The position numbers were made by a program, and so were the translations under genes. Shown piece by piece: positions 6,369 to 21,636 of a stretch of DNA of 25,051 bases. Under the pieces are notes generated by a model. It did no database searches and was not told where the DNA came from. It was given only the letters and a program-made list of their open reading frames with translations. Source of the DNA: Methylophaga sp. (GTDB lineage: Bacteria > Pseudomonadota > Gammaproteobacteria > Nitrosococcales > Methylophagaceae); contig NZ_JAUSCC010000099.1 in assembly GCF_030651745.1 (NCBI RefSeq), forward strand, positions 1 through 25,051, written 5' to 3'. Every line of letters starts with the position of its first letter. Position 1 is the first letter of the stretch.

Positions 6369-6483
6369 AGAATGTCTGTCATTACTGAAGGGGGTATCAA
6401 TGAGAGATGAAACAACTTCAACTGTCCTGATTATGACAGCTTGAAGCCTTCGGTGTTCTGAGCAAACGAAATTAAATGTCTAA

Positions 6484-7410
6484 TTAAGCCGTTTGATCCG
6501 GGAGATTTTCTTTACGGAAAGCACTCGGTGAACAGCCGAAAAACAGACTAAAACGTCGACTGAAATGGCTTAAGTCATTGAAACCATAGCCATAACAAGC
6601 TTCAGTGACGCTTTGACCACCACGAATGGCATCCGCAGCGGATTTCAGCCTGAGTTGTTGATGAAATTCACCCGGCGTACAGCCCAACTGTTTTTTAAAT
6701 TCAACATATAAGCGGCTACGACTCATGCAGGCCTGTCGGCATAATTGCTCGATATCCAAAGGTTCACGCAGATTTTGTTCGAGAGTGTGAATAACCGTTG
6801 TAATGCCTGTGGCATCTGGCACGCGTTTGCAGTAACTCAATAATACATCGCGGCCCTGCTCACGAAGTAATCGGATCACCAGTTCGGATACACCCAAATC
6901 CACCATCAATTCTTTGTCAGGATCATTTCGTACATAAAACGAAACCATTCTTTCCAGCAATTGCTGAGTATCACGGGTGTGATGTTTGTGAATAATGCGT
7001 GGCTGATATTCCCAGTTGTGATCTGGTGCTTCAATTTTCACCACATCCCGCATACGTTTTGAGATAGCTTCAATACGTTCTTTGGATATCTCAATCGTCA
7101 AACAGGTAGTCGGTTGTTGCTCATTGGCATCGGGAAAATCAATTTCGACATGCTCACCGGGCGGCATCACGTAAGACTCATGTGGCACAAACAATTCGCC
7201 GGAAGCATTGTAATGGTTATGCATTACTTTTCGGCCGCTAACCATGCCGCAATATAATAAGTGATCAGCCTCAAGTGCGACGCCTGATGAACTACGATAA
7301 GTATCGTAAATACTCAATTCAGTTTCCGGACCGTTAAATGTCACTTTATTTTCTATCAGCAACTGACGGTTTTCACGTCGGCTACTTGGTGGAAATGTAT
7401 TCAGGCTCAT
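6484..7410 (-). CDS. AraC/XylS-family transcriptional regulator, likely activator of the divergent aldehyde dehydrogenase
   Basis: The 308-aa protein has an N-terminal sensing domain of the AraC-binding-like type (about residues 1-190). Its C-terminal AraC double helix-turn-helix (about 205-303) contains LDIEQLCRQACMSRSRLY, then TPGEFHQQLRL, and the family signature GYGFNDLSHFSRRFSLFFGCSPSAFR. The gene is transcribed away from the aldehyde dehydrogenase gene at 7680. The 269-bp gap contains three copies of AGTCAAGT, two of them 21 bp apart just upstream of the dehydrogenase -10 box. This is the arrangement expected for a class II AraC-type activator and its target. The inducer is unknown; an aldehyde or its parent alcohol is the natural guess. 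Start ATG at 7410. No strong terminator is seen in the 115 bp down to tamA. Confidence 0.9.
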   Translation of the reverse strand: MSLNTFPPSSRRENRQLLIENKVTFNGPETELSIYDTYRSSSGVALEADHLLYCGMVSGRKVMHNHYNASGELFVPHESYVMPPGEHVEIDFPDANEQQPTTCLTIEISKERIEAISKRMRDVVKIEAPDHNWEYQPRIIHKHHTRDTQQLLERMVSFYVRNDPDKELMVDLGVSELVIRLLREQGRDVLLSYCKRVPDATGITTVIHTLEQNLREPLDIEQLCRQACMSRSRLYVEFKKQLGCTPGEFHQQLRLKSAADAIRGGQSVTEACYGYGFNDLSHFSRRFSLFFGCSPSAFRKENLPDQTA

Positions 7411-7679: not shown

Positions 7680-9200
7680 ATGATTTACGCAAAACCAGGC
7701 ACACCAGAGTCGGTGATCTCATTCAAATCACGTTATGAAAACTTTATTGGCGGTGAATGGGTTGCCCCCGTCAAAGGCGAATACTTTAATAACATTACCC
7801 CGGTAACCGGCGAAGTTATTTGTGAAATTCCCCGCTCCGGCGAAGCCGATATTGAACTGGCTTTAGATGCGGCACACGCTGCACGTGATGCCTGGGGCAA
7901 AACCTCGGTTCAAAATCGCAGCAATATCCTGTTGAAAATTGCTGATCGCATTGAAGCCAACCTTGAAAAACTGGCGGTAGCCGAAACCTGGGATAACGGT
8001 AAAGCAGTTCGTGAAACCCTCAATGCCGATATTCCATTGGCCGCTGACCATTTCCGTTATTTTGCCGGTTGTTTGCGTGCTCAAGAAGGCACAATGGGTG
8101 AAATCGATGAAAACACCGTCGCATATCATTTCCATGAACCACTGGGAGTTGTCGGTCAGATCATTCCCTGGAACTTCCCGTTATTAATGGCAGCCTGGAA
8201 ACTGGCACCAGCTTTGGCGGCAGGCAACTGTGTGGTGATGAAACCGGCGGAACAAACGCCAGTATCCATCCTGATTCTGGTTGAGCTGATTGCCGATCTG
8301 CTGCCTGCCGGGGTATTAAATATAGTGAACGGTTTTGGTCGTGAAGCTGGTCAGGCACTTGGTACCAGTAAACGTATTGCCAAAATCGCTTTCACCGGAT
8401 CAACGCCGGTTGGTTCATTAATAATGAAATACGCTGCTGAAAATATTATTCCGTCAACCGTCGAACTGGGTGGCAAATCTCCGAATATTTTCTTTGAAGA
8501 CATCATGCAGCAGGAACAGGATTACATTAATAAATGTGCCGAAGGCATGGTGCTGGCATTTTTCAACCAGGGTGAAGTTTGTACCTGCCCTTCCCGTGCG
8601 GTGATTCAAGAAAGTATCTATGACGAATTTATTGCCGTTGTCATGGAACGCGCCAAAATGATTAAACGTGGTAATCCGCTTGATACTGAAACACAAGTCG
8701 GGGCTCAGGCTTCTCAAGAGCAGTTTGATAAAATCCTCAGCTATGTTGAAATTGGTAAACAGGAAGGCGCTCAACTGTTAATGGGTGGTGGTATCGAACA
8801 GCTTGGTGCTGAATTCAATTATGGTTTCTATTTCGAACCGACATTGATGAAAGGCCACAATAAAATGCGTATCTTCCAGGAAGAAATTTTCGGACCAGTG
8901 GTTTCAGTAACAACGTTCAAAGATGAAGCTGAAGCGTTGGAAATTGCCAACGATACTGAATTTGGTCTGGGTGCAGGCTTATGGACCCGTGATATGAACC
9001 TTGCCTATCGCATGGGTCGTGCTATTCAGGCCGGACGTGTGTGGACCAACTGCTACCATCATTATCCAGCGCATGCTGCCTTCGGTGGATACAAAAAATC
9101 CGGTGTAGGTCGTGAAACGCACAAAATTGCTCTGGAACATTACCAACAAACCAAAAACCTGTTGGTCAGTTACAGCACCAGCCCGCTCGGTTTCTTTTAA
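7680..9200 (+). CDS. NAD-dependent aldehyde dehydrogenase, AldB/ExaC/AcoD type
   Basis: This enzyme oxidises an aldehyde, most likely acetaldehyde, to the carboxylic acid with NAD(P)+. The 506-aa length and sequence fit the AldB/ExaC (acetaldehyde dehydrogenase II) group. Visible motifs are [19 protein letters not shown] (cofactor binding), FTGSTPVG, the catalytic-base glutamate in VELGGKSPN (residue 262), the nucleophile in [11 protein letters not shown] (Cys301, followed by a second Cys at 303, as in AldB-type enzymes) and the EEIFGPV motif. A purine run at 7665-7676 precedes the ATG. The divergent AraC regulator and the half-sites in front of it point to inducible expression. A terminator follows, and acetyl-CoA synthetase comes next, so the two could act in sequence from acetaldehyde to acetyl-CoA. 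The exact substrate is inferred. Confidence 0.93.
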
Positions 9201-9220
9201 AACATTCTAATCAACAAACA

Positions 9221-9257
9221 AACTCTCCCCTAAGCTTGGCTTTCGGGAGAGTTTTTT
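9221..9257 (+). terminator. Intrinsic terminator after the aldehyde dehydrogenase gene
   Basis: A 9-bp perfect stem (9221-9229 with 9245-9253), enclosing a 15-base loop, is followed by a T run to 9257. It lies 20 bases after the dehydrogenase stop and separates that gene from acs, so acs should have its own promoter. Confidence 0.9.
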
Positions 9258-9293
9258 ATTGGAAGCTGACTACATTTAACGCTGGCAGCGGGC

Positions 9294-9299
9294 TATACT
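9294..9299 (+). promoter_or_regulatory. Possible -10 box for acs
   Basis: TATACT at 9294-9299 lies 31 bases before the acs start codon and downstream of the terminator. No good -35 sequence is present at 16-18 bp spacing (TACATT at 9271 is poor), so activation by a regulator such as CRP is possible but no site was identified. An AAGG-type ribosome-binding site follows at about 9317-9325. Confidence 0.4.
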
Positions 9300-9330
9300 C
9301 AAAAAGAGAGAATAATAAGGTAAGGTATTT

Positions 9331-11292
9331 ATGGCTCAGAATAATATTGAATCAACCCTTCATGAAAACCGGCATTTCGCACCTTGCGACAGTTTTTATA
9401 AAAACTCTGCACTCAATCCTCAGAAACTTGATGCGCTTTATGCCAGGGCGGCTGAAGATCATGAAGCATTCTGGGGTGAATTAGCCAGACAGGAACTGGA
9501 CTGGATCAAACCCTTCAGCAAAACATTAGATGACAGTAATGCCCCATTTTATAAATGGTTTGCCGATGGCCAATTGAATGTTTCGTATAACTGCCTAGAT
9601 AGACAATTAGCAGATAATGCCGAAAAAACTGCCATCATCTTTGAAGGCGAACCTGGCGATGTGCAACATATCACTTACCGAATGCTGCATAAGAAAGTCT
9701 GTGTGTTTGCCAATGCCTTAAAAAATCAAGGTATCAAAAAAGGTGATCGGGTCATTATCTACATGCCCATGATCACCGAAGCCGTGGTGGCCATGCAGGC
9801 TTGTGCCCGCATTGGTGCCATACATTCCGTAGTATTTGGTGGATTCTCAGCTGAAGCATTAAAAGATCGTATTGAGGACACAGAGGCTAAATTAGTTGTT
9901 ACCGCCGATGGTGGACATCGTGGTGGCAAAATCGTACCACTGAAAAATACCGCTGATCAGGCATTAGCAAAAGGCTGCAAAAGTGTAGAAACCGTCATTG
10001 TCTTCAAACGTTGCGGCAACGACATCAATATGCAGGATGGTCGCGATATCTGGTGGCATGATGCTGAAGAAGGTCAATCAGCAGAATGTGATCCTGAACC
10101 AATGAATGCCTGCGATCCGCTGTTTTTACTTTACACATCAGGCTCTACCGGCAAACCAAAAGGTATTCAGCATTCTTCCGCTGGTTATCTGCTGAATGCC
10201 ATTACTACCATGCGTTGGGTATTTGATATTCAGGCAAAAGACGTATTCTGGTGTACTGCCGATGTTGGCTGGATCACCGGTCATACCTATGTTGCTTACG
10301 GCCCTCTGGCGGTCGGTGCAACAATGATTGTTTATGAAGGTGTACCAACGGTTCCTGATGCAGGCCGTTTCTGGGATGTGTGTGCCCGTCATCATGTCAC
10401 TATTTTCTATACCGCACCGACAGCGATTCGGGCATTGATGAAAGCTGGTGATGAGATTCCACAACGTTATGACCTATCCTGCCTGCGATTATTGGGTACG
10501 GTGGGAGAACCGATTAATCCTGAGGCATGGATGTGGTATCACCGGGTGATTGGTCAGGAACGTTGCCCGATTGTGGATACCTGGTGGCAGACTGAAACCG
10601 GTGCACATATGATTGCGCCAGTGCCAGCTGTGACAGTTACCAAACCTGGTTCATGTACACGCGCCCTTCCGGGCATTGATGCAGCAGTGGTTAACGAACA
10701 AGGTGAAGCCCTTGGTGAAAATCAGGGTGGTTTTCTGGTGATTCGTAAACCTTGGCCATCGATGATCCAGACTATCTGGGGAGATGATCAACGTTATAAG
10801 GACACCTATTGGCCGTATTTCGACGGCAAATATTATCTTGCTGGTGACAGTGCGCGTCAGGATGAGGAAGGTTACTTCTGGATCATGGGCCGTATTGATG
10901 ATGTGCTTAATGTGTCCGGACATCGTTTGGGTACCATGGAAATTGAATCAGCTCTGGTGGCGCACGAAGCTGTTGCCGAAGCAGCCGTGGTCGGTAAACC
11001 ACACGATGTAAAAGGCGAATCGGTGTTTGCCTATGTTGTGCTTAAAGGCACACGTCCAGAAGGTGGTGTTGATGAAGAAATGACCAACGTATTACGCGCC
11101 TGGGTCGCCGATCAGATTGGACCTATCGCCAAACCAGACGAAATTCGTTATTCCGACAATCTGCCGAAAACCCGCAGCGGTAAAATTATGCGTCGCTTAC
11201 TACGTACCATTGCCAAAGGTGAAGAGATCACTCAGGACACTTCAACGCTGGAAAACGAAGGCATTTTATTGCAATTACAAGGTAAGGCTTAA
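9331..11292 (+). CDS. acs: Acetyl-coenzyme A synthetase (AMP-forming)
   Basis: Acs activates acetate with ATP and CoA to acetyl-CoA through acetyl-AMP. The 653-aa product aligns along its length with E. coli Acs (652 aa). It shows the phosphate-binding motif [11 protein letters not shown] (starting at Tyr268), [12 protein letters not shown], the acyl-pocket and AMP motif DTWWQTETG, the hinge region [16 protein letters not shown], and the C-terminal lysine in TRSGKIMRR (Lys618), the residue known to be acetylated for control in Acs enzymes. The DTWWQTETG pocket and overall similarity favour acetate over propionate (PrpE is more distant). The stop overlaps the hslR start by one base (TAATG), so acs, hslR and mazG are probably cotranscribed and coupled. 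Confidence 0.95.
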
Positions 11293-11696
11293 TGGCGAAA
11301 GCCGAAACGGAAAGTCAGGAAAATCAACGGCTTGACAAATGGCTCTGGGCTGCGCGGTTTTACAAAACCCGCAGCCTGGCTGTTGAAGCGATAAACGGCG
11401 GTAAAGTCCATGCAAATGGTCAGCGGGCAAAACCCAGCCGTACTATTCATCCAGGCGATCAATTAGCCATTTCATTGCCACCTTATGAATATGTGGTGGA
11501 TGTATTAGGTCTGCAAAAACAGCGGCGCCCGGCCAGCGAAGCCCAGTTGCTCTATCAGGAAACTCCGGAAAGTCGTGAAAAACGCGAACTGTTACGCGAA
11601 CAAATCAAAAACGAACCGTTAGGCTTTCGTGACCAAAAAGGTCGACCCAGCAAACGGGATCGTCGGCATATTATTAAATTTACCCGTGGCGACTAA
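11292..11696 (+). CDS. hslR: Ribosome-associated heat shock protein Hsp15
   Basis: Hsp15 is an S4-domain RNA-binding protein that recognises free 50S subunits carrying a stalled nascent chain and helps release the peptidyl-tRNA. The 134-aa product matches E. coli HslR (133 aa), with RLDKWLWAARFYKTRSLA at the S4 start (residues about 14-31), GGKVHANGQRAKPS, and the conserved EQRRPASEA-like stretch (here KQRRPASEAQLLYQETPES). The tail is basic. It starts at ATG 11292 inside a TAATG overlap with acs and ends in another TAATG overlap with the next gene, so its translation probably depends on ribosomes arriving from acs. No independent promoter was recognised. Confidence 0.95.
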   Translation: MAKAETESQENQRLDKWLWAARFYKTRSLAVEAINGGKVHANGQRAKPSRTIHPGDQLAISLPPYEYVVDVLGLQKQRRPASEAQLLYQETPESREKRELLREQIKNEPLGFRDQKGRPSKRDRRHIIKFTRGD

Positions 11697-12106
11697 TGGA
11701 TAAACCTTCCCTACTTAATGCTGCAGATAAACAGCTTCCATCGCTTCGTTATGCAGTTGAATTACAAAAAACGGCTGCCAGTATCGGGTTTGACTGGCCG
11801 CATATTGATGGTGTGATTGCCAAAATTCATGAAGAACTCGACGAAGTCGCCGCTGAACTGGATGAAGCTGATCAGGTTAAATTGCAGGAAGAAATTGGTG
11901 ATTTGTTATTTGCGATTACCAATCTTGCCAGGCATTTAAACATTGATCCGGAACAAGCCATTCAGCAATGTAATCAGAAATTTATCCGCCGCTTTCAGTA
12001 CATTGAATCTCAAATATTCCGGCAGGGCAAAACATTGCAAACCGCCTCATTGGCTGAGCTGGATGCACTTTGGGATACAGCGAAAAACATCGAGAAAAAG
12101 AGTTAA
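11696..12106 (+). CDS. Single-domain MazG-like nucleoside triphosphate pyrophosphohydrolase
   Basis: MazG enzymes hydrolyse NTPs or dNTPs to monophosphates and pyrophosphate. The 136-aa protein carries the metal-binding helix motifs KIHEELDEVAAEL (EExxE) and EEIGDLLFAITNLARHL (ExxD), followed by the NQKFIRRFQYIE segment. These match the second (C-terminal) domain of the two-domain E. coli MazG (263 aa). The N-terminal MazG domain is absent, and it was not lost to a window or frame problem, because the ATG sits in a TAATG overlap with hslR. It may be a naturally short, house-cleaning family member. Three genes (acs, hslR, this one) form a tight run. Substrate is unknown. Confidence 0.85.
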   Translation: MDKPSLLNAADKQLPSLRYAVELQKTAASIGFDWPHIDGVIAKIHEELDEVAAELDEADQVKLQEEIGDLLFAITNLARHLNIDPEQAIQQCNQKFIRRFQYIESQIFRQGKTLQTASLAELDALWDTAKNIEKKS

Positions 12107-12129
12107 ACTCCGCCTGTAAGGCTATGTTT

Positions 12130-12579
12130 TTAAAAGTCTAAAAACAAACGATATGCCAACATTGAAGACTCTGTGAAACCATGTTGTTCGTAAAAACGGT
12201 GCGCTGCTTCATTGTCATTATCGGTCAGCAAGGTAATGCGTTTACAGCCTTTTTCTCTGGCAAAATCAATAGCGTGTTTCAGTAATTCCGACCCGACACC
12301 AAGTCCTCGATGTTGTGGTGCAATAACCATATCTTCCAGAATCGCGACCCGACTGCCAAGTGCCGTTGAAACGGTATACAGCAAATTCACCATGCCGATA
12401 ATCTGCCCGGATTGTTTTGCCACCAGAATATCGCCTATGCCATCCCCTTCAATAATCGCTCCTAAACCGAGTGCCTGTAATTGGCTATCCGGTTTAAATT
12501 CGGCTTCCTGACTAAACAAGGTGTCGAGTAACAAACATAATTGTGGAATATCCGTGCTAACAGCTGTTTGAATTTGCAT
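12130..12579 (-). CDS. GNAT-family N-acetyltransferase
   Basis: The 149-aa protein is a single GNAT domain, with motif A (acetyl-CoA pyrophosphate loop) as HRGLGVGSELLKHA at about residues 90-103, preceded by the strand LEDMVIAPQ and followed by the typical HRFYEQHGF ending. It would transfer an acetyl group to an amine on an unknown substrate. The gene starts 3 bp after the fdhD stop on the same strand, so it is probably the last gene of the moaA-fdhD unit. It faces the mazG-like gene with only 23 bp between the two stops, where no clear hairpin was seen. A specific function cannot be assigned. Confidence 0.88.
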   Translation of the reverse strand: MQIQTAVSTDIPQLCLLLDTLFSQEAEFKPDSQLQALGLGAIIEGDGIGDILVAKQSGQIIGMVNLLYTVSTALGSRVAILEDMVIAPQHRGLGVGSELLKHAIDFAREKGCKRITLLTDNDNEAAHRFYEQHGFTESSMLAYRLFLDF

Positions 12580-12582
12580 AAC

Positions 12583-13422
12583 TTATCCAGCAGAGCTTAA
12601 TGAGTTAGTTGTTTGAAATTGATCCTGGCCGGTATATACCAGAAAGTGCTTACCTTTAGCACGAGCCACCATGCCAATACCAATATTCTGAGCAATGCTG
12701 AGCCCCATCTCGGTCACACCGCTGCGTGATAACAATAACGGCACCTGCATTTGCGCCACTTTTATCACCATCTCGGACGTCAGGCGGCCAGTGGTATAAA
12801 ACACTTTGCCGTCGCCTTTGATATCGTTCAGCCACATCCAGCCGGAAATCGCATCAACGGCATTATGTCTTCCAACATCTTCTACGAAAAACAACACCTC
12901 ATTCTGCTGGCACAGTGCACAACCATGTACCGCCCCCGCCTGTTTATACATTTCGTTATATTCGTTTAGGGCATGCAAAACATCGTAAATTGACTCAGCA
13001 CTGAACTCGGGACAGTGCAATTTGAGTGAGGACAACGAATCCATCACATGACCAAACATAGTGCCCTGCCCGCAACCACTGGTGGCAATACGTCTGGACA
13101 TCAGCGAATCGAGGTTATTTTTCTGCTGATGTGTAGTCACCGCCACAGCATCGACATCCCAATCCACCTGAATGGATTTGATATGTGTTATTTCGTCGAC
13201 CAGTCCCTGATTACGCAGATAACCCAGTGTAAGTAACTCCGGCTGACCACCCAAAGTCATTAAGGTCACAATCTCGCGATTATCCAGATAAATGGTAAGT
13301 GGTCTTTCACCCGTCAACGACACTTCGCGGGCTTCGCCAGACTCATCTAACACTGTCGTAGTATGTAGTCGATTTATGCCCTGATTGGTCATTTCGAGTT
13401 GATATCTAGCCACCGGTGACAC
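12583..13422 (-). CDS. fdhD: Formate dehydrogenase accessory sulfurtransferase FdhD
   Basis: FdhD delivers sulfur from IscS to the molybdenum cofactor and is required for active formate dehydrogenase. The 279-aa protein shows ERPLTIYLDNREIVTLMTLGG at the start of the fold, the reactive loop TSGCGQGTMFG, and the family signature FFVEDVGRHNAVDAISGW. In the reactive loop only one cysteine is present, whereas E. coli FdhD has a CxxC pair there. A separate CxxC (GCALCQ) lies just before the EDVGRHN motif. The GTG start at 13422 overlaps the moaA end by 17 bp; the alternative ATG at 13392 would remove ten residues. The overlap with moaA fits joint production of molybdenum cofactor and its insertion factor. 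Confidence 0.93.
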   Translation of the reverse strand: MSPVARYQLEMTNQGINRLHTTTVLDESGEAREVSLTGERPLTIYLDNREIVTLMTLGGQPELLTLGYLRNQGLVDEITHIKSIQVDWDVDAVAVTTHQQKNNLDSLMSRRIATSGCGQGTMFGHVMDSLSSLKLHCPEFSAESIYDVLHALNEYNEMYKQAGAVHGCALCQQNEVLFFVEDVGRHNAVDAISGWMWLNDIKGDGKVFYTTGRLTSEMVIKVAQMQVPLLLSRSGVTEMGLSIAQNIGIGMVARAKGKHFLVYTGQDQFQTTNSLSSAG

Positions 13423-14413
13423 TCATATGACGGAAGATAATCGGTTGTTCTTTGATATTAAAGTCATGGCCTTTCGGTTTGATGTCCATTGACTTAATGA
13501 TGGCCTGTTTGAGTTTTTCAATATCACCGGGATGACGGCGGATAATGTCACGCAAATCCATCGAATGCTCCTGCCCCAGACATAACAGCAGACGGCCTTC
13601 AGTGGTGACCCGTACCCTGTTACAGCTTTCACAGAAGTTATGGCTATGCGGGGAAATAAAACCAATTTTGCTATTGGTACCAGCCGCTTTGTAATAACGG
13701 GAAGGTCCACCGGTATTGGCAATACTGCTTTGCAAGTCAAAATGTTTTTGTAATGTCGCCAGCACTTCATCACTACTACAGTAGCTTTCATTACGGCTAT
13801 GAGTCACTTGGCCTAATGGCATCTCTTCGATATAGGAAATATCCAGATCATTATCGATGGCAAATTGCGCCAAATCGACAATCTCATCATCATTACGGCC
13901 TTTCATAATCACCGCATTCAATTTAATGCGTTTAAAGCCAGCTTGTTTGGCAGCATCAATGCCAGCCAATACCTGCGAGAGTTCACCAGTTCGGGTCAAT
14001 TCACGAAAGCGATCGGCATTTAATGAATCCAGACTGATATTAATACGGTCCATACCGGCCGCAGCCAGCTTTTCAGCGTACTTCGGCAACTGGGAGCCAT
14101 TGGTAGTCAAGTTCAATTCTTTAAGCGACGTAGTGTGCTTCAGTGCACCTATCTGCTCGATCAACCAATCAACATTACGACGCACCAAAGGTTCACCGCC
14201 GGTAATGCGGACTTTTTCCACGCCTAACTCACAAAATGCTCTAACCAGAAAAGCAATCTCTTCCAACGTCAGCAGCCGTTCGCGTGGCATGAAGGTCATT
14301 TCTTCATCCATGCAATACACACAACGAAAATCACAACGATCGGTAATCGATATGCGTACATAGTTCACGCGTCGTCCGAAGTTATCGATCAATTGTGTTT
14401 GGGTATCAGTCAT
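13406..14413 (-). CDS. moaA: GTP 3',8-cyclase MoaA
   Basis: MoaA is a radical SAM enzyme that, with MoaC, turns GTP into cyclic pyranopterin monophosphate, the first step of molybdopterin synthesis. The 335-aa product has the N-terminal SAM cluster motif CDFRCVYC (C-x3-C-x2-C, about residues 28-35), the SAM-binding ITGGEPLVRR, the C-terminal second-cluster motif CESCNRVRVT followed by the third cysteine in LLLCLGQ, and the conserved terminal GG dipeptide needed for activity. Length is normal. The gene begins 15 bp after a DUF2892 gene and overlaps fdhD by 17 bp at its end, indicating one transcript. Confidence 0.96.
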   Translation of the reverse strand: MTDTQTQLIDNFGRRVNYVRISITDRCDFRCVYCMDEEMTFMPRERLLTLEEIAFLVRAFCELGVEKVRITGGEPLVRRNVDWLIEQIGALKHTTSLKELNLTTNGSQLPKYAEKLAAAGMDRINISLDSLNADRFRELTRTGELSQVLAGIDAAKQAGFKRIKLNAVIMKGRNDDEIVDLAQFAIDNDLDISYIEEMPLGQVTHSRNESYCSSDEVLATLQKHFDLQSSIANTGGPSRYYKAAGTNSKIGFISPHSHNFCESCNRVRVTTEGRLLLCLGQEHSMDLRDIIRRHPGDIEKLKQAIIKSMDIKPKGHDFNIKEQPIIFRHMSVTGG

Positions 14414-14428
14414 GGTGTTTATTATGCG

Positions 14429-14641
14429 CTAGCTACGCTCTTTATGAGAAATATCACAGGAATCGTTTGCAGTGGAAAAGCCAAATAAGGCATAACCGCC
14501 ACAGCGACCGCTTAAACCATTAATCAGCAGACCTAATCCCAGCAAGGCCCACCAACTTTGGTAATACAACGCAATCACTATTATAAACAGACCGATTATG
14601 ATGCGTAACGTTCTATCGGTTTTGCCCAGATTCTTTTTCAT
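14429..14641 (-). CDS. DUF2892 family small inner-membrane protein
   Basis: This short protein (70 aa from the ATG at 14641) has a basic start (MKKNLGKTDRTLRI) and two hydrophobic segments (about residues 13-26 and 29-42). It closes with a cysteine-containing tail, GRCGGYALFGFSTANDSCD. That layout matches DUF2892 proteins, which are often found alone or fused to rhodanese domains; their role is unknown. The frame is open upstream to 14695, giving 18 extra residues. That extension would lie over the terminator hairpin of the preceding gene, so the shorter start is preferred. It lies 15 bp before moaA on the same strand and may share its transcript. Confidence 0.8.
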   Translation of the reverse strand: MKKNLGKTDRTLRIIIGLFIIVIALYYQSWWALLGLGLLINGLSGRCGGYALFGFSTANDSCDISHKERS

Positions 14642-14655
14642 TGCACTGCTCCAGA

Positions 14656-14683
14656 TACAAACAAGCCCCTTTGCAGGGGCTTG
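14656..14683 (-). terminator. Terminator of the BI-1/YccA-family gene
   Basis: An 8-bp perfect stem, CAAGCCCC (14662-14669) with GGGGCTTG (14676-14683), has a 6-base loop. On the minus strand it is followed by TTTGT, a weak U tract. It lies about 25 bases downstream of the YccA-family stop and just before the DUF2892 start, so it may attenuate rather than fully stop read-through into moaA. Confidence 0.75.
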
Positions 14684-14709
14684 AATGAATAACATGTCAG
14701 ACTGGCAAA

Positions 14710-15381
14710 TTAATCGCTGCTTGAGAAAGCGCCGATCAAATGCAACAGGCTGGTAAACAGGTTGTAGATACTGACATATAAGGTCACAGTCGCCATGATG
14801 TAGTTGGTTTCGCCACCGTGAATGATGTTGCTGGTTTCGTACAGAATCAAACCAGACATCAGCAATACGAACATTGCAGAAACAGCTAATGACAGACCAG
14901 GCATGCTAAAGAAGAACGCCGCCAGACCGGCCAGGAAGGCCACCAGAATACCGACAAACAGGAATCCGCCCATAAAACTGAAATCTTTCTCAGATTTAAT
15001 CGCATAAGCAGACAAACCTAAAAACACAATACCGGTCGCGCCCAGGGCTTGCATAACAATTTGCGGGCCATTCGGTAAGCCTAAGTAAGCATTAACGATA
15101 GGTCCTAAAGTTAATCCCATGAAGCCTGTCAGAGCGAAAACAGACGCAATACCCCAAACACTGTTGCGCAATTTAGCCGTCAGGAACAACAGACCGAAGT
15201 AACCAATTAACGTAATAACAATGCCAGGATGTGGCAGGTTAAACACCATTGACACCCCAGCTGTAACAGCACTAAAGCCCAGCGTCATCGCCAGCAATAC
15301 ATACGTGTTACGTAATAGCTTGTTGGTTTGTAGCGCAGACTCGCGTGAGCGTACAACCGTTGATTGAGCATCGTAGTTCAT
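14710..15381 (-). CDS. Bax inhibitor-1/YccA family membrane protein
   Basis: The protein has seven hydrophobic helices and the BI-1 family layout, including LRNTYVLLAMTLGFSAVTAG at the first helix, FALTGFMGLTLGP, and the C-terminal ETSNIIHGGETNYIMATVTLYVSIYNLF, a hallmark of bacterial YccA/YbhL proteins. In E. coli, YccA binds and modulates the FtsH membrane protease. The frame could start at 15396, but that ATG lies inside a GGAG Shine-Dalgarno element placed nine bases before a second ATG at 15381. I therefore choose 15381 (MNYDAQ..., 223 aa), which also matches the usual family N-terminus. It is transcribed alone, with a terminator behind it and the divergent tRNA-Ser in front. Confidence 0.92.
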   Translation of the reverse strand: MNYDAQSTVVRSRESALQTNKLLRNTYVLLAMTLGFSAVTAGVSMVFNLPHPGIVITLIGYFGLLFLTAKLRNSVWGIASVFALTGFMGLTLGPIVNAYLGLPNGPQIVMQALGATGIVFLGLSAYAIKSEKDFSFMGGFLFVGILVAFLAGLAAFFFSMPGLSLAVSAMFVLLMSGLILYETSNIIHGGETNYIMATVTLYVSIYNLFTSLLHLIGAFSSSD

Positions 15382-15442
15382 CAGTTTTTTCTCCATTACA
15401 CAGTAAAAGTATTGATGATAGGTAGTTCATCCAATGGACATC

Positions 15443-15454
15443 ATCCTACAGGAT
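15443..15454. repeat. Short inverted repeat upstream of the YccA-family gene
   Basis: ATCCT-AC-AGGAT at 15443-15454 is a perfect 5-bp inverted repeat about 60 bp upstream of the YccA-family start. On the minus strand, TTGCCA and TAGGAT (the latter inside the repeat) sit 16 bp apart and could form a weak sigma-70 promoter. It is short enough to be chance. Confidence 0.3.
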
Positions 15455-15496
15455 AAGTTCTAAATGGCAATAGCAAACTAAATTTTGCTTTCACTG

Positions 15497-15525
15497 TTGT
15501 CAGAACAAGTCATTCCTAGTAATAT
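15497..15525 (+). promoter_or_regulatory. Promoter of tRNA-Ser
   Basis: TTGTCA (15497-15502) and TAATAT (15520-15525) are separated by exactly 17 bp and are followed by the GC-rich discriminator GCCGCG. That discriminator is typical of stable-RNA promoters under stringent (ppGpp/DksA) control. Transcription should start only a few bases before the mature tRNA 5' end at 15536. Confidence 0.8.
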
Positions 15526-15535
15526 GCCGCGTCTT

Positions 15536-15626
15536 GGAGGGTTGGCAGAGCGGTTGAATGCACCGGTCTTGAAAACCGGCGTGGGTTTATAGCCTACCCA
15601 GGGTTCGAATCCCTGACCCTCCGCCA
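15536..15626 (+). tRNA. tRNA-Ser (anticodon UGA)
   Basis: The 91-base gene folds as a class II tRNA. The acceptor stem pairs GGAGGGT (15536-15542) with ACCCTCC (15616-15622), then discriminator G and an encoded CCA (15624-15626). The anticodon stem is CCGGT/ACCGG with loop CTTGAAA, giving anticodon TGA at 15570-15572. There is a long variable arm, as expected for serine, and a T-loop GGTTCGAATCC. It reads UCA and other UCN codons. Confidence 0.97.
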
Positions 15627-15635
15627 AAACAAACT

Positions 15636-15658
15636 AACGGACCTCGGTCCGTTTTTTT
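15636..15658 (+). terminator. Terminator of tRNA-Ser
   Basis: The stem AACGGAC/GTCCGTT with the 4-base loop CTCG, followed by a run of seven T, lies 10 bases after the tRNA CCA end. It is a clear rho-independent terminator. Confidence 0.9.
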
Positions 15659-16249
15659 GTATCTGGGGTTTGGAAATTGTGATTTTAGCTGTTCTGTATT
15701 TAGAAATTATTTCAGGCTATATCGTCGTATCTGAACATATCCTTTTACTACTGACATTATCCGTCGTTTCTGTCTCCGCCATCCCATGCACATCGTTGTC
15801 CCCCCCCTTCGCCATTACGTTCGAATCTGCTTAAAGCCGACCATGTATTTGGATATGTTGCCAGTAACTCAAATGCGACGTTAAAGCCAACTGCGTAGTC
15901 CAAGTCAGAGCGATGTACGGTGACGTACAGACGGGCGGCTCATAGCTGTCTAACATCAAAAATGAAGTCTCTAACTACATTAGTCAGCATGGAAGTGAAC
16001 AAGCTGTACACGCTAGCAGGTTAATGTGAAGAAGACGGTGGAGAGCAACTTGTAAGCGGCTTACTTCAAAGGTGTAGAGAAATGTTTTAGAGCATTTTGT
16101 CTGGCGATGCGCAGCGTATTGGCGATACCAGTCCGACCTGCGTGATCCCATCAAAACCGGCGAAAATGTTCGCATCCATCCTGTAGGCCTTCATCACAGT
16201 GAGATTGTGCCGTTCGGTAACCGATAGTCCTTAAATAAAAGGAAGAATT
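15659..16249. other. Gene-free stretch with many short hairpins, possible structured RNA
   Basis: No convincing coding region is seen on either strand. The first part is unremarkable apart from a run of eight C at 15800-15807. TTAAAGCC is repeated at 15831 and 15881. From 15908 there are several small perfect hairpins: TGTACG-GTGA-CGTACA (15914-15929, a GNRA-type loop), GTAAG-CGG-CTTAC (16052-16064), AAATG/CATTT (16080-16097), ATGCG-CAG-CGTAT with one G-U pair (16107-16119), GCGAA-AATG-TTCGC (16160-16173) and TCGG-TAA-CCGA (about 16214-16224). TGGCGAT is repeated 18 bp apart at 16102 and 16120. The plus strand is purine-rich and leads straight into a ribosome-binding site and small ORF. It could be a leader, a remnant of a mobile RNA element, or chance structure. 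Confidence 0.4.
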
Positions 16250-16486
16250 ATGGACAAACCTCTTTTACCATTAATATCTATGATTGACTCATATATTTCA
16301 CGGAACACAGGAACTCTAGTTATATTTTTATCTACAGATCTTTATCATCAAATTCTGCATTCAAACAGAACCTCATTCAATTTAGCTTATGATCCGCCCA
16401 AATTGTTGGGACATAGTTTTTCTGTGCGAGATGATATCGATACTCAGGAGAAACAATTTTTTGTTACAGGCGATGTAGCATTGTAA
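16250..16486 (+). CDS. Small hypothetical protein, 78 aa
   Basis: The ORF starts with ATG after an AAGGAAG ribosome-binding site (16239-16245) at good distance, which few chance ORFs have. The product begins MDKPLLPLISMIDSY and ends EKQFFVTGDVAL. It has a hydrophobic patch near residues 21-29 (GTLVIFLST) and an acidic segment RDDIDTQE, with no signal peptide and no motif I recognise. The codons are AT-rich and include ATA, AGA, CTA and CGG, which are uncommon in the neighbouring core genes, suggesting acquired DNA. It stands alone between the tRNA-Ser and the convergent end-joining operon. It may be a real small gene or a fragment of a lost one. Confidence 0.45.
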   Translation: MDKPLLPLISMIDSYISRNTGTLVIFLSTDLYHQILHSNRTSFNLAYDPPKLLGHSFSVRDDIDTQEKQFFVTGDVAL

Positions 16487-16607
16487 GAAACAAAATAAGT
16501 TGCATGAAAATGACTACGAGCATTGCCGCAGTCCTACCCCCGATCCCTAATCGAAGAGGATGCAGTACTAAAATTCAAAATCGTTGGCACACCCACCTGC
16601 TCATTTT

Positions 16608-17594
16608 TCATAGTGACTTATGAGTTGTAAGTGCGTCGATAAGTTTTGCTTTAGACATTTTACTGCGGCCGGGTAAATTCTGGGATTGTGCCATTTCATA
16701 GAGCTCTGCCTTGCTTTTCGACCTGAGTTCACTGGCTTTTGGCTGACGGGTTTTGCTTTGGGATGCTGATCGTTCGCGAAGCTTACCTTGTAAACGCTCT
16801 TTCAGTACCTCCATCAGATCTACCACGTTCGTTGAACTTTCTTCGACTTCCTCGTCGTCAGTACTAGCCTTCACAATATCGGTACCGGAACGCAGCTTCT
16901 TATCGGCAAGTTTAATGATGCGCGCACTGCGTTGATCCTTAAGTTCAGCATGATCCAGTGTTTTAGTTTTTAATCCTTTGATGGCTTGTGTGAAATGCTT
17001 CACTTCAGCTGCATCTACTGATTTCATTTCAGGTAATCCAATGGCTTTCGGACTACGCAGTTCGTCAGCAAAGCGTAGCGTCTCCGCACGCAGGATCCCA
17101 CGCTCGGCAATTATCGCGCACAAATATTCTTTCCCCCGCATCACAAAGGTTGCGATGCCAGCACGTCCTTCCTGCACCAAAGTTTCGGCAAGAAGTCGAT
17201 AAGCTTTTGTGGAACCACCATTAGGAACCAGGAAGTACGCTCGCTCAAAATACAACGGACTCAGTGTATTCAAATCTACGAAAAGTTTGAGATCTATCTC
17301 ACGGGACTTCTCAGGATCGAGTGCTTCAAGCTCATCATCCTCGATGATGACAAATCGATCTTTTTCAATTTCATAACCACGTACTAGGTTTTTAGCATCA
17401 AGCGGTTTGCTGTCTTCCGAGCCGAAAAATCGACGTTTGAGTAAATTACCTTTGTCATCAACCATTCGTAGTCGAAGTGTTGTGCCACGGGTCGCAGGAA
17501 ATAAACTAACGGGAACGCTCACCAGACCAAAGGTGACAACACCAGACCAGAACGGCTTCAGGATTTCGGTTTCTTCGGTAGGTTCTTCTGCCAT
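16608..17594 (-). CDS. ku: Ku-family non-homologous end-joining protein with C-terminal SAP-like domain
   Basis: Bacterial Ku forms a ring dimer on DNA ends and recruits LigD for end joining. The 328-aa product has the Ku core from about residue 10 (LKPFWSGVVTFGLVSVPVSLFPA) to about 250, with the characteristic YLVPNGGSTKAYRLLAE-like segment (here YFLVPNGGSTKAYRLL) and MRGKEYLCAI. A linker rich in charged residues follows. The end (about 285-325, ELRSKSKAELYEMAQ and MSKAKLIDAL) resembles a SAP or Rho-N-type DNA-binding helix pair. The ATG at 17594 has a GAGG ribosome-binding site that overlaps the stop of the upstream Ku gene, 9 bp away. It is the last gene of the operon; no strong terminator was recognised after it. 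Confidence 0.93.
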   Translation of the reverse strand: MAEEPTEETEILKPFWSGVVTFGLVSVPVSLFPATRGTTLRLRMVDDKGNLLKRRFFGSEDSKPLDAKNLVRGYEIEKDRFVIIEDDELEALDPEKSREIDLKLFVDLNTLSPLYFERAYFLVPNGGSTKAYRLLAETLVQEGRAGIATFVMRGKEYLCAIIAERGILRAETLRFADELRSPKAIGLPEMKSVDAAEVKHFTQAIKGLKTKTLDHAELKDQRSARIIKLADKKLRSGTDIVKASTDDEEVEESSTNVVDLMEVLKERLQGKLRERSASQSKTRQPKASELRSKSKAELYEMAQSQNLPGRSKMSKAKLIDALTTHKSL

Positions 17595-17603
17595 AACTCG
17601 ACC

Positions 17604-18383
17604 TCACGCGCTCTTTTTTAAAGACTTTAGGCTCGCTTGCAATGCGCTCCCCAAGTCATTATTGGGTTTCTTGGATGATGGTTTGACCAACTTCAGCCGT
17701 GGTCCACCTTTTGCTTTTGACTCAACCAGTTTTAACACTCGCTCGCGATAGGCATCATGAAAAGCAGACAAGTCCAATTCATCTGCTAACATGCCAATTA
17801 ACTGACGAGCCATCTCTAGCTCCTTCGGGTTCAGATCTGCACCACCGGGTGCAACTAAATCCTCTATTGCGACAACTTCATCGGCATGCTTCAACGTAAT
17901 TAGTACTGGATATCCTTGATGTAGTCGCAACGCGCCCATATACATTTTCCCACGCATCACCCAACGCATGAGTCCATGCATTGCACTACTCTCAATGGCT
18001 TCAATGAAAGCAAAATAGGCTTTGCTATTGCCGTCAGGACCGAGGTAGTAAGGCCTATCGTACCAACGGTGATTAATCTGCTCGGCTGGCAGAAAAGCAA
18101 TAGTCTCGATGTTGCGTGAAGGTTCGGGTTCCAATGCGTCCAGCTCAGTAGTTTCAAGGATGGCACGATCACCATTTTCAGCCACGTAGGCTCGGTGCGT
18201 TTTATCATGTGGCACTATTTTTCCTGTCTCAGGGTTAACCATTGCTCCTTTTACCGGTTGTTTATCCTTGCGGCTAAGAATACGGAAACGAATATTTCGA
18301 TCCTCAATCGCAGAATAAAGTTTTACCGGCACCTGATATTTGCCACATTGAATAACCGCTTTCCAGATCGCGTGTGCTGCCAT
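17604..18383 (-). CDS. ku: Second Ku-family non-homologous end-joining protein
   Basis: A second, clearly different Ku protein, 259-260 aa from the ATG at 18383 (MAAHAIWKAVIQCGKYQVPVKLYSA). It has the Ku core, including PYYLGPDGNSKAYFAFIEAI and MRGKMYMGALRL, and a short basic tail ending in KSLKKSA instead of the SAP-like domain of its neighbour. The frame is open a further 36 bases upstream, but the chosen ATG sits in a TAATG overlap with the stop of the small zinc-finger gene and gives the typical Ku start, so it is preferred. Its TGA stop (17604-17606) lies inside the ribosome-binding site of the next Ku gene, which suggests coupled and possibly equal production of both Ku proteins. Confidence 0.93.
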   Translation of the reverse strand: MAAHAIWKAVIQCGKYQVPVKLYSAIEDRNIRFRILSRKDKQPVKGAMVNPETGKIVPHDKTHRAYVAENGDRAILETTELDALEPEPSRNIETIAFLPAEQINHRWYDRPYYLGPDGNSKAYFAFIEAIESSAMHGLMRWVMRGKMYMGALRLHQGYPVLITLKHADEVVAIEDLVAPGGADLNPKELEMARQLIGMLADELDLSAFHDAYRERVLKLVESKAKGGPRLKLVKPSSKKPNNDLGSALQASLKSLKKSA

Positions 18384-18601
18384 TACAAGTCCCCTGATTT
18401 TTTGTGGCAAATTGGGCAACTAGGTTCGCTGTCCATATCGAGGAGCATGCATACGGCACATACTTGTGCGTCACAAGCCCTGCAGTAGTACATCGCTTCA
18501 ACATGATGCGGCTGCTCACACCAGGGACAGAGCGCTGGACCTGGCGCCATCCACCAACCGGCTCCAGATCCTGGTTCGTCGTTGTCATTATGCATACTCA
18601 T
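18383..18601 (-). CDS. Small eight-cysteine cross-brace zinc-finger protein in the end-joining operon
   Basis: The 72-aa product has a Gly/Trp/Pro-rich start and then eight cysteines in four CxxC pairs: 25/28, 40/43, 48/51 and 62/65. The spacing C-x2-C-x11-C-x2-C-x4-C-x2-C-x10-C-x2-C is that of a two-zinc cross-brace (RING/FYVE-like) finger, and CRAC-x4-CAVC resembles the centre of FYVE domains. The basic RKHHC motif for lipid binding is missing (AMYYC instead), so lipid binding is not expected. The ATG overlaps the ligD stop (ATGA, 4 bp) and the TAA overlaps the Ku start (TAATG), so it is embedded in the operon. The function is unknown; an adaptor for Ku, LigD or DNA ends is an inference from context. 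Confidence 0.82.
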   Translation of the reverse strand: MSMHNDNDEPGSGAGWWMAPGPALCPWCEQPHHVEAMYYCRACDAQVCAVCMLLDMDSEPSCPICHKKSGDL

Positions 18602-21138
18602 AGCCCCACTGCTTTTCGCATTCGCGGAGTAATCGCAACTTGCGAATCATAAAAATCACCCCAAGGATCTTCTTTGAGATGTGCAAGCCGCCGCCGCAGG
18701 TTAGTGACTGAATACTGATCGGGACGCAAGGATGAAGTCAATTCATCCCATCTGATTGGCACCGCCACCGGCGCCCCAGATCTTGCTCGAGTTGAATAGC
18801 TAGCCACTGCGGTCGCACCACGGCCATTACGCAGATAATCGATAAAGATTTTATGTTGACGTTGGGCTTTGGGGAGTTTAGCGGTGAGCCGAGATGGCGC
18901 GTCAGCAGCGTGCCGTTCGGAAACGGCTTTTGCAAAAGCCTTAACACCATCCCAATCCGTTGTCGGACGCAGTGGTACTACTACATGCAGGCCCTTGCCG
19001 CCCGTCGTTCGTACAAAGGTATTGAAACCGAGCTTTTCGAGTCGTTCACGCAATTCTCGAGTGACTTTAAGAATATCCTTCCACTGCACACCGGGGGAAG
19101 GATCGAGATCAAAAATCATTTGATCCGGATGCTCTGTATCCGTTATCAAGCTACCAAAAGGATGGAATTCGAGCACTCCCGATTGCACCAAAGAAATGAC
19201 ATGTTTTATCGACTGGACATAGGCATAGGGTTTGTAACCTTTGCTTTGTCTAAAATCCTGTCGCGGTACTTTACTAGCTTGACTCGCAAGTAGATGTTTT
19301 TGGAAGAAACATTCCTGTTCTCTTCCATCAGGACACCGGACCAGGGAAAGTAAACGATTGGCAACCATCGGCATCAACCAGTCTTGGATATCCGCGTAGA
19401 ATTGCGCAACTTCAAGTTTGGTAAAGCCAATATCCGGATAAACAACCCGATCCGGATGGGTGATACGGATTCCCTCCACAACATCGTCGCCTTGCGTGGT
19501 AGTCGATAAGGGTCGTTTGGGAGAAACTCTAACATCAGAATCTTTATTGGCAACGTGGGCAGTTGCGGCGCCCATAACGACCTCTTTGGCATTACGGTCC
19601 TCGCGGACTCCACGAAATATTGGATGGCGTAAACGACCTTCTCGCGTCTCATCGCTGAACTCAACGTCGACTACCAGCTGGGGAGTGACCCATGTAACAC
19701 CTTTCGCATCGGGCACATTGTCTGCAAAAGGAGATGTTTGCCTTTTAGCTTTTGTCAGAACACCATGCAAGTGCTTCAACTGTTTATCGCTGAAACCTGT
19801 ACCAACACGCCCTCGATAACGAAGCGCATCACCTTCCCAACTTCCAAGCAACAAGGCCCCGAATCCTTTACGCAAGCCCGACGGCGGAGTAAATCCGCCG
19901 ACTAGAAATTCACCATCCTGTGAGTCTTTAATTTTTAGCCACGAATTACTGCGGCGACTGGTGTATTGAGCATCAGCAAGCTTCGCCACGGTGCCTTCCA
20001 GACCAAGTTCGCAAGCGTGTTCGAAGAACTCTCGTCCTAATCCAATAACGTGATCGGAGTACTGAATTAATGAGCCCGTGACCGCAAGGCCACTTTGCTG
20101 CAGAAGAGTCTTTAATGCAATTTTACGATCAAGAAGTGTTGCTGCCGTCAAATCGTAACCATCTAGATACATCAGGTCGAATAGGTGCAAGACCAGCGAG
20201 CCGGTATTTTTAGCACTGACCAGATCCTGCAGTTCTGCGAAGCTGGATATGCCTTGATTATCCATGGCGACCATCTCGCCATCGAGAATAGCGTCTTTTA
20301 CCTTGAGAGCTCTAAGTTGCCGCACCTGTGCAGCAAACCGTCTACTCCAATCGAGGCCATTCCGTGAGAGTAATCGAATCTTTCCTTCAGCAATATGAAC
20401 AACCATACGATAACCGTCAAACTTGATTTCATGAATCCATTCATCGCCATCTGGAGGGACTTCTGCCGGCGTCGCAAGTTGAGGTGCGAAGCTTGCTGGT
20501 AGAGTTTGTCGCCGAGCACCTGGAATGTTGGAAGGCGATACAGGAGGATTGTCACTCGACATAATTTCATTTTGATCAAAGGGGGCGCCCTTAGCTATCT
20601 CCTCCATAGTTCTGCCGCTAAGGATACTCAGATCGTGCGCATTAGTAGCACTGACATCATTATTCCCACGTTTGATAAGCAGCCAATTGGTAGCTGGCCT
20701 GCCGGTGGCAGCACCACTTCTAACCAGTGTCCAGGCCCCCTTCAATTTGCCCCCGTCAAGGGTGAAGTCAATGCGATCGGCAGTGCTTTTTCCGGTTACA
20801 TTCCAAGTGCCTTCATCCCAAAGCATAATGGTACCGCCACCATATTGTCCCTTTGGGATAGTGCCTTCAAACGAGCCGTAGTCAATGGGATGATCTTCAA
20901 CCTCTACCGCCAAACGCTTTTCGCCCCGTTTAAGACTCGGGCCTTTAGGTAACGCCCAACTTCGCAGAACTCCTCCTTCTTCAAGCCGCAAATCATAATG
21001 AAGGTGACTCGCTTTATGCTTGTGCATAACATAACGTTGGCCTTGGGAAGGATATGTATCGCCCTTGGGTTCTGCCGTGATATCAAAATCACGTTTGCGA
21101 CGGTAAGTAGTAAGTGAGCGTTTCACAGTACCGTTCAT
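18598..21138 (-). CDS. ligD: Multifunctional NHEJ DNA ligase LigD (phosphoesterase-ligase-polymerase)
   Basis: LigD trims, fills and seals broken DNA ends bound by Ku. The domain order is that of Pseudomonas LigD. First is the 3'-phosphoesterase (about residues 10-170, with HKHKASHLHYDLRLE, whose His and Asp residues bind the metal, and GTIPKGQYGGG). Next is the ATP-dependent ligase (about 215-520, nucleophile Lys239 in EIKFDGYR, then LDGEMVAMD and SWLKIK). Last is the primase-type polymerase (about 550-840, catalytic Asp677 and Asp679 in IFDLDPSP, then RTTGGKGLHV). I use the ATG at 21138 (846 aa). The frame also allows a TTG at 21168, adding ten residues; neither has a strong ribosome-binding site. 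The stop overlaps the zinc-finger gene by 4 bp. It is the first gene of the end-joining operon. Confidence 0.95.
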   Translation of the reverse strand: MNGTVKRSLTTYRRKRDFDITAEPKGDTYPSQGQRYVMHKHKASHLHYDLRLEEGGVLRSWALPKGPSLKRGEKRLAVEVEDHPIDYGSFEGTIPKGQYGGGTIMLWDEGTWNVTGKSTADRIDFTLDGGKLKGAWTLVRSGAATGRPATNWLLIKRGNNDVSATNAHDLSILSGRTMEEIAKGAPFDQNEIMSSDNPPVSPSNIPGARRQTLPASFAPQLATPAEVPPDGDEWIHEIKFDGYRMVVHIAEGKIRLLSRNGLDWSRRFAAQVRQLRALKVKDAILDGEMVAMDNQGISSFAELQDLVSAKNTGSLVLHLFDLMYLDGYDLTAATLLDRKIALKTLLQQSGLAVTGSLIQYSDHVIGLGREFFEHACELGLEGTVAKLADAQYTSRRSNSWLKIKDSQDGEFLVGGFTPPSGLRKGFGALLLGSWEGDALRYRGRVGTGFSDKQLKHLHGVLTKAKRQTSPFADNVPDAKGVTWVTPQLVVDVEFSDETREGRLRHPIFRGVREDRNAKEVVMGAATAHVANKDSDVRVSPKRPLSTTTQGDDVVEGIRITHPDRVVYPDIGFTKLEVAQFYADIQDWLMPMVANRLLSLVRCPDGREQECFFQKHLLASQASKVPRQDFRQSKGYKPYAYVQSIKHVISLVQSGVLEFHPFGSLITDTEHPDQMIFDLDPSPGVQWKDILKVTRELRERLEKLGFNTFVRTTGGKGLHVVVPLRPTTDWDGVKAFAKAVSERHAADAPSRLTAKLPKAQRQHKIFIDYLRNGRGATAVASYSTRARSGAPVAVPIRWDELTSSLRPDQYSVTNLRRRLAHLKEDPWGDFYDSQVAITPRMRKAVGL

Positions 21139-21168
21139 GACTTTGAATTTGCTGAAGAATGAGACCAA

Positions 21169-21636
21169 AAAGCAACATAGTGCGTGTCAGGCAAAATATA
21201 AGACTCTTCGGACGGCAAAGTATCAGGCTTACGTTTTACCAACCAGAAAAATAGTTTGAGAATACGATGATTGCACTGTTTTAAAAGGAGTAGTGATCTG
21301 GACATAAACATGATTCATTCCAAATTTTTAATTAAGCGCTGGAGAGTTTTAAATTCCAATTACTATAAATATTGAGATGCTTTTGCTTTATGTAACACTT
21401 CGATTAGCAATGCATCGGCATGAATAATCAGAATAATTTCTTAGATGTTTGTTGCGTACTTAAATTTTATAAAAGTCATAATTTTCGCCTTTAAAGTAAG
21501 TAGACGACATTTCAATCCAAAAGTACGTTGAATTAATAATTAGAACATTAACTTACATTAAATTTAATTGAATACTAATCCTGTTGAGTAAGCTGACATA
21601 TATCGATATCGAAAAAGTCGTTTATTGGGCATGGGA
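21169..21636. other. AT-rich intergenic region between cydC and ligD
   Basis: About 470 bases without a plausible ORF on either strand and clearly richer in A+T than its neighbours. It must hold the ligD promoter and the end of the cydDC transcript, but no good -35/-10 pair and no strong hairpin were found. ATATCGATAT (21600-21609) is a perfect 10-bp palindrome 28 bp after the cydC stop. No repeat of the tRNA-Ser 3' end was seen that would mark an island boundary. Confidence 0.5.

Follow-up and report, generated by a model that had tools for sequence, protein, structure and literature searches.

The window, that is, the whole 25,051-nt stretch of Methylophaga DNA analysed, carried on its minus strand an operon with the order ligD-zn-ku1-ku2, in which zn is the name used here for the gene of a 72-aa protein with eight cysteines (18383-18601). 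The operon and its elements were as follows.

18598..21168, minus strand: ligD, encoding phosphoesterase, ligase and primase-polymerase domains (Pfam, NCBIfam)
18598..18601, minus strand: ATGA, 4-nt overlap of the ligD stop with the zn start (sequence)
18383..18601, minus strand: zn, gene of a 72-aa protein with 8 Cys in four CxxC pairs (ATG start, conservation in alignment A5, dN/dS)
18551..18556, minus strand: conserved aromatic pair Trp16-Trp17, N-terminal to the first CxxC pair (A5)
18407..18529, minus strand: segment Cys25-Cys65, CxxC-x11-CxxC-x4-CxxC-x10-CxxC, presumed two-zinc cross-brace domain (sequence and A5; fold inferred)
18381..18385, minus strand: TAATG, overlap of the zn stop with the ku1 start (sequence)
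17604..18383, minus strand: ku1, 259 aa from its ATG at 18383-18381 (TIGR02772, 210.7 bits; own clade in the Ku tree)
16608..17594, minus strand: ku2, 328 aa, its C-terminal part weakly resembling Rho_N (TIGR02772, 226.0 bits)

The deduced LigD scored 658.9 bits against NCBIfam TIGR02776 (cut-off 373.2), and the products of ku1 and ku2 both exceeded the TIGR02772 cut-off of 150, showing them to be genuine bacterial Ku proteins; the Rho_N match of ku2 (22.1 bits) fell below its Pfam cut-off of 24.9. LigD and Ku genes scoring above curated cut-offs thus lay adjacent on the same strand, as in a bacterial NHEJ operon. A preliminary description of this DNA had reported a 72-aa protein with four CxxC pairs spaced 11, 4 and 10 residues apart, encoded between ligD and a Ku gene and overlapping the former by ATGA and the latter by TAATG; the ORF at 18383-18601 and its flanking sequences bore out each of these points, and both neighbours passed the NCBIfam cut-offs. 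The second Ku gene, ku2, was absent from that description. A Shine-Dalgarno-like AGGGGA run was located inside the 3' end of zn, just ahead of the ku1 start. About 1 kb beyond ku2 was a tRNA-Ser gene (anticodon TGA, 15536-15626), with only short ORFs of 63 and 78 aa in between.

The cysteines of the zn protein occupied positions 25/28, 40/43, 48/51 and 62/65, and all eight were invariant in the 16 rows of alignment A5, as were Gly21, Glu35 and Asp44. Trp16-Trp17 were nearly invariant, the row of P0015 beginning downstream of that pair; P0014 was excluded from alignments A3 to A5 because of its Ku tail (see below). Between the window and locus L005, zn had a dN of 0.029 and a dS of 0.169, and between the window and L004 a dN of 0.28 and a dS of 1.59 (ungapped pairing), giving a dN/dS of approximately 0.17 to 0.18. 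Since dN was well below dS in both comparisons, the zn protein is under purifying selection, and together with the eight invariant cysteines this places the pattern beyond chance. One reading of the invariant cysteines is a redox or zinc switch, in which oxidative stress would strip zinc from them and the protein would then alter Ku activity or operon expression, so that joining is tuned to damage. Such a switch would also suit the overlap of zn with ku1 and the accessory distribution of zn described below, but an acidic protein is an unlikely DNA-binding regulator, and the conservation of residues other than cysteine (Trp16-17, Gly21, Glu35 and Asp44) fits a binding surface at least equally well; we regard it as unlikely.

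The window protein and 13 homologues had net charges from -4 to -9, each of these 14 proteins having 1 to 6 Lys/Arg residues; among the ten genomic loci, window included, the charge ranged from -2 (Haliea) to -9. Acidity of this kind makes a protein partner likelier than DNA. Several classes of zinc finger bind nucleic acid and zn lies among genes for proteins acting on DNA ends, so that a finger touching the break and handing it to Ku might be imagined; with charges this negative and so few basic residues, such a role is very improbable. Acidity would instead suit a negative regulator that mimics DNA, plugging the basic channel of the Ku ring and blocking its loading, which corresponds to the ring-clamp regulator of the preliminary description and agrees with the overlap of zn with ku1. 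Yet only Glu35 and Asp44 among the acidic residues were invariant in A5 and the Haliea protein had a charge of just -2, and we give this possibility little weight.

The window zn protein reached no Pfam or NCBIfam cut-off, and searches of PHROGs and PADLOC, collections without curated cut-offs, returned nothing at E values up to 0.1 for P0001, P0016 and P0018. Scores against zinc-finger families were all below the gathering cut-offs: 12.5 versus 27.8 bits for FYVE (PF01363), 11.0 and 13.7 versus 27.3 and 27.9 for RING (PF13639 and PF14634), and 21.4 and 16.8 versus 26 and 24.1 for C1_2 and B-box. FYVE domains have a core of middle pairs CxxC-x4-CxxC, to which Cys40-43-x4-Cys48-51 conformed, and a lipid-binding motif R(R/K)HHCR, which was missing from the window protein (HVEAMYYCRACD at that site); RING motifs include a His ligand. 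In profile comparisons, A5 aligned over residues 23-66 with a PHD finger (E = 0.0025) and over residues 11-54 with a portion of the WDFY3 FYVE domain (E = 0.016); its match to a tandem RNF4 RING chain (E = 2e-4) combined two weak ones, each with an E value of about 0.2. Individual members gave weak matches, at E values up to 1, to B-box (15 of 16), C1 (11), Sec23/24, PHD and Siva (10 each), as well as to RING. The profile therefore fits the broad RING/PHD/FYVE/B-box class and no named family, and we infer from the cysteine pattern a two-zinc cross-brace fold in which pairs 1 and 3 and pairs 2 and 4 would each hold one zinc. The protein shares four Cys pairs with FYVE, RING, PHD and B-box fingers, although it lacks the FYVE lipid motif and the RING His ligand; the earlier label "RING/FYVE-like" accordingly holds for the class and fails for the families. 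A RING E3 ligase was rejected, as the RING cut-offs were missed and the Pfam analysis of 12 window ORFs showed no ubiquitin-type gene in this set.

A similar arrangement of cysteines was observed in hybrid histidine kinases from Sinorhizobium (L001, nt 3519-6899 on the plus strand, and L002) and seven genomes of the order sample (L054-L059 and L061), whose segment CxxC-x10-CxxY-x4-CxxC..CxxxC precedes the kinase domain. Its knuckles align with those of zn (37% identity over 41 columns, hhalign probability 76), whereas the kinase segment has CxxY as its second knuckle and CxxxC as its final one, zn having CxxC at both, so that the ligand set differs. The segment is also located in the middle of kinase-receiver proteins of more than 1000 aa (Pfam on L001 and L054), in contrast to a protein of 72 aa. 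No Pfam domain names this segment, and the long N-terminal part of the same proteins, by appearance like a membrane permease, had no Pfam match.

Homologues of zn were rare. Three successive protein searches yielded 4, 11 and finally 14 among 5.8 billion clustered proteins. Nine genome loci were found besides the window, one of which (G150) encodes database protein P0016; the ten loci are thus the window, L003, L005, L004, G150, G149, G848, G869, G897 and G587. Of 24 stretches matched in a scan across 84,980 species genomes, three were confirmed as loci; a single gammaproteobacterial MAG accounted for two of them and Haliea sp. E1-2-M8 for the third, and each had the order ligD-zn-ku1-ku2. As the scan used two strict peptide patterns, which missed more distant members found later, it was not exhaustive. 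Whole-genome searches of samples that overlap one another (Haliea is in three, and G002 in both the family and the order samples) gave zn in 1 of 95 relatives of the MAG, which was the MAG itself, and matches in 4 of 140 genomes of the Haliea family (one spurious), in 3 of 369 genomes of the class (only Haliea counted) and in 14 of 390 genomes of the order, the last comprising five zn-type small ORFs, seven kinase ORFs and two other ORFs. The seven zn-bearing genomes searched individually had one match each, and G001 had two copies.

Dropped from these counts were L011 (internal stops, Cys pattern absent), G306/L013 (a short CxxC ORF of a different kind, located where a contig ends), G555/L014 (internal stop), the seven kinase ORFs, and L053 and L060 (ORFs of another kind, 448-452 aa). 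L053, L060 and L013 represent a separate family that has a CxxC finger at the N terminus (CKYHP close to the start), measures 448-452 aa where complete and matches the profile weakly; L053 and L060 contained no Ku or LigD match. Two viral scans and phage records revealed no relative, and a phage origin was rejected on that basis. As for a plasmid origin, the plasmid match that was opened (L001) proved to be the kinase segment, found also in L002, and not zn. A match in Caballeronia fell on a transporter-like frame and was likewise rejected.

In all ten loci with visible surroundings, window included, zn was directly upstream of ku1 of a ku1-ku2 pair, even though Ku1 identity among them fell to 48%; the surroundings of 12 of the 14 database proteins were not visible. 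The zn stop and the ku1 start overlapped in nine of the ten (TAATG, TGATG, TAGTG or ATGA), G897 having a 2-nt gap. The gene ligD was just upstream of zn in eight loci; in G149 it was downstream of ku2 (zn-ku1-ku2-ligD), and in G897 it was on a contig different from that of zn-ku1. Because ligD was displaced in these two loci and ku1 was not, zn follows ku1 rather than ligD, and of the earlier proposal that zn is coupled to both Ku and LigD, the Ku link stands, whereas an equal link to LigD does not. In P0014 the zn domain runs straight into the first residues of Ku1, a fusion that may be a sequencing or assembly frameshift. Homologues lying mostly away from ku or ligD, or having disrupted cysteines, had been named in advance as observations against a dedicated NHEJ gene; every locus with visible surroundings adjoined ku1 and nine had lost no cysteine, the exception being G587, whose Ku genes were also broken.

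Searches with Ku1 as the query found ku1-type Ku in 3 of the 140 genomes of the family sample, the same three that carry zn, and in 6 of the 390 genomes of the order sample (E up to 1e-40), five of which carry zn. In the class sample some Ku was present in 26 of 369 genomes at 1e-20, and the ku1 type only in Haliea and G372. Conversely, at 26 loci with only other Ku types no ORF with four CxxC pairs occurred in the fetched stretch of up to 1.5 kb on each side. Two ku1-ku2 operons were without zn, those of G793, in which ligD abuts ku1, and G372; no zn was detected anywhere in either genome at E values up to 0.1 in a search that scored every first-look candidate. These operons indicate that zn is accessory and not indispensable. 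Near its finger-less ku1-ku2 pair, G372 had a second LigD-like gene on the opposite strand (L072).

A tree built from 47 Ku sequences placed the 11 Ku1 proteins in one clade and the 11 Ku2 proteins in another, both with 100% SH-aLRT and a long stem and both separate from the remaining 25 Ku sequences, taken from the class. The two genes were in tandem in all 11 loci of the tree. The recurrence of two separate lineages as a tandem pair suggests that Ku1 and Ku2 form an obligate heterodimer. Multiple Ku genes per genome and the idea of their pairing are already in print for Streptomyces and Sinorhizobium, heterodimers having been suggested as possible for Streptomyces, in the part of PMC5124664 consulted. 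G372 grouped with G848 and G897 at 86-88% ultrafast bootstrap (the tool's mark being 95), and the concatenated tree was weak at its base; as G372 is nested among carriers, zn was probably lost at least once. Columns invariant in the carriers and changed in both zn-less operons numbered 5 in Ku1, 7 in Ku2 and 3 in LigD, and the pair G372 and G793 ranked first of 21 pairs for such columns in Ku1 and Ku2, not in LigD, although this signal is weak and is confounded by the long branches of both. The idea that the finger substitutes for a CxxC knuckle lost from Ku was dropped, because CxxC is likewise missing from all 25 other Ku sequences.

In G587, Tyr replaces the seventh Cys of the zn protein, Ku1 stops 21 residues after the overlapping ATG with only its later part remaining, and Ku2 is a fragment, showing that the finger decays together with its operon. 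LigD was in pieces as well in this decayed operon relative (L070, L052 and L066), in addition to the broken Ku1, Ku2 and finger.

Varied extents of similarity were shared by the window with the other loci. The alignment with L003 covered 13 kb (8394-21372, 91.6% identity) and included the downstream flank, whereas at the threshold used those with L005 (16632-21153, 89.9%) and L004 (16630-21123, 73.4%) were confined to the four genes, which are thus one block found in different places. The operon (16608-21168) had a GC content of 0.483 versus 0.449 in the remaining window, and this shift, together with the operon-only alignments, gives it the look of a transferable block. One MAG carries two operon copies, L005 and L003, 89.8% identical and in different surroundings; either the bin combines several strains or the second copy is genuine. 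A gene in such a block could be a passenger with no role in end joining, as the differing flanks in L005 and L004 and the absence of zn from G793 and G372 would allow. However, a mere rider would hardly be expected beside ku1 in ten of ten loci at this level of Ku1 divergence, nor under purifying selection, nor with cysteines lost, among the ten loci, only where the Ku genes are broken; we think this explanation improbable.

As the place of zn before ku1 is kept in related bacteria, zn is probably an additional end-joining part in its carriers. Position alone does not distinguish a subunit from a regulator. With somewhat better than even confidence, we propose from these sequence comparisons that zn is a small acidic cross-brace zinc-finger adaptor, an accessory subunit dedicated to an NHEJ machine with two different Ku proteins. 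By this proposal, the protein would be made together with Ku1 through translational coupling, as the conserved gene overlap suggests, would fold around two zinc ions, and would bind Ku1 or the Ku1-Ku2 dimer by protein-protein contact, possibly through its conserved Trp-Trp/PGP segment. It might then help to hold LigD or set the loading of Ku on, or its leaving from, DNA ends, which is the weakest step of the scheme. Since some ku1-ku2 operons do without zn, it would tune joining rather than enable it. According to the part of PMC12658125 consulted, LigD is recruited in Mycobacterium tuberculosis through release of the Ku C-terminal helix, and control of that step by zn is therefore one concrete possibility.

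More tentatively, and with less than even confidence, some gammaproteobacteria may possess a heterodimeric Ku1-Ku2 with LigD and a dedicated cross-brace zinc finger that attaches to the Ku dimer and directs either the recruitment of LigD or the loading of Ku, which would make zn a functional counterpart of the eukaryotic Ku accessory factors. No description of such a gene was found in the literature covered, namely titles and abstract openings, including few subscription papers, and the portions consulted of PMC7719229, PMC12658125, PMC11936186, PMC5124664, PMC12784961 and PMC8656161.

The part of PMC12784961 consulted describes bacterial NHEJ as consisting of LigD and a Ku homodimer. The present operon resembles that system in having a three-domain LigD and genuine Ku genes, here two in one operon, and differs from it in the extra 72-aa zinc-finger-like gene overlapping ku1 and in the two divergent Ku lineages recurring as a tandem pair. 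The operon type is thus known, while the extra finger gene and its tie to the paired Ku appear to be new, and a small system of four genes offers a setting in which the contribution of an accessory factor to Ku and LigD can be tested. In eukaryotes, human APLF, PAXX and XLF bind the vWA domains of Ku, domains that bacterial Ku lacks (PMC12658125, in the part consulted). If the adaptor reading is right, zn resembles these factors as a small extra protein acting on Ku; no sequence relation to them is claimed. Should a conserved third gene indeed be tied to one member of a paired Ku, some bacteria would have evolved a more complex, eukaryote-like assembly.
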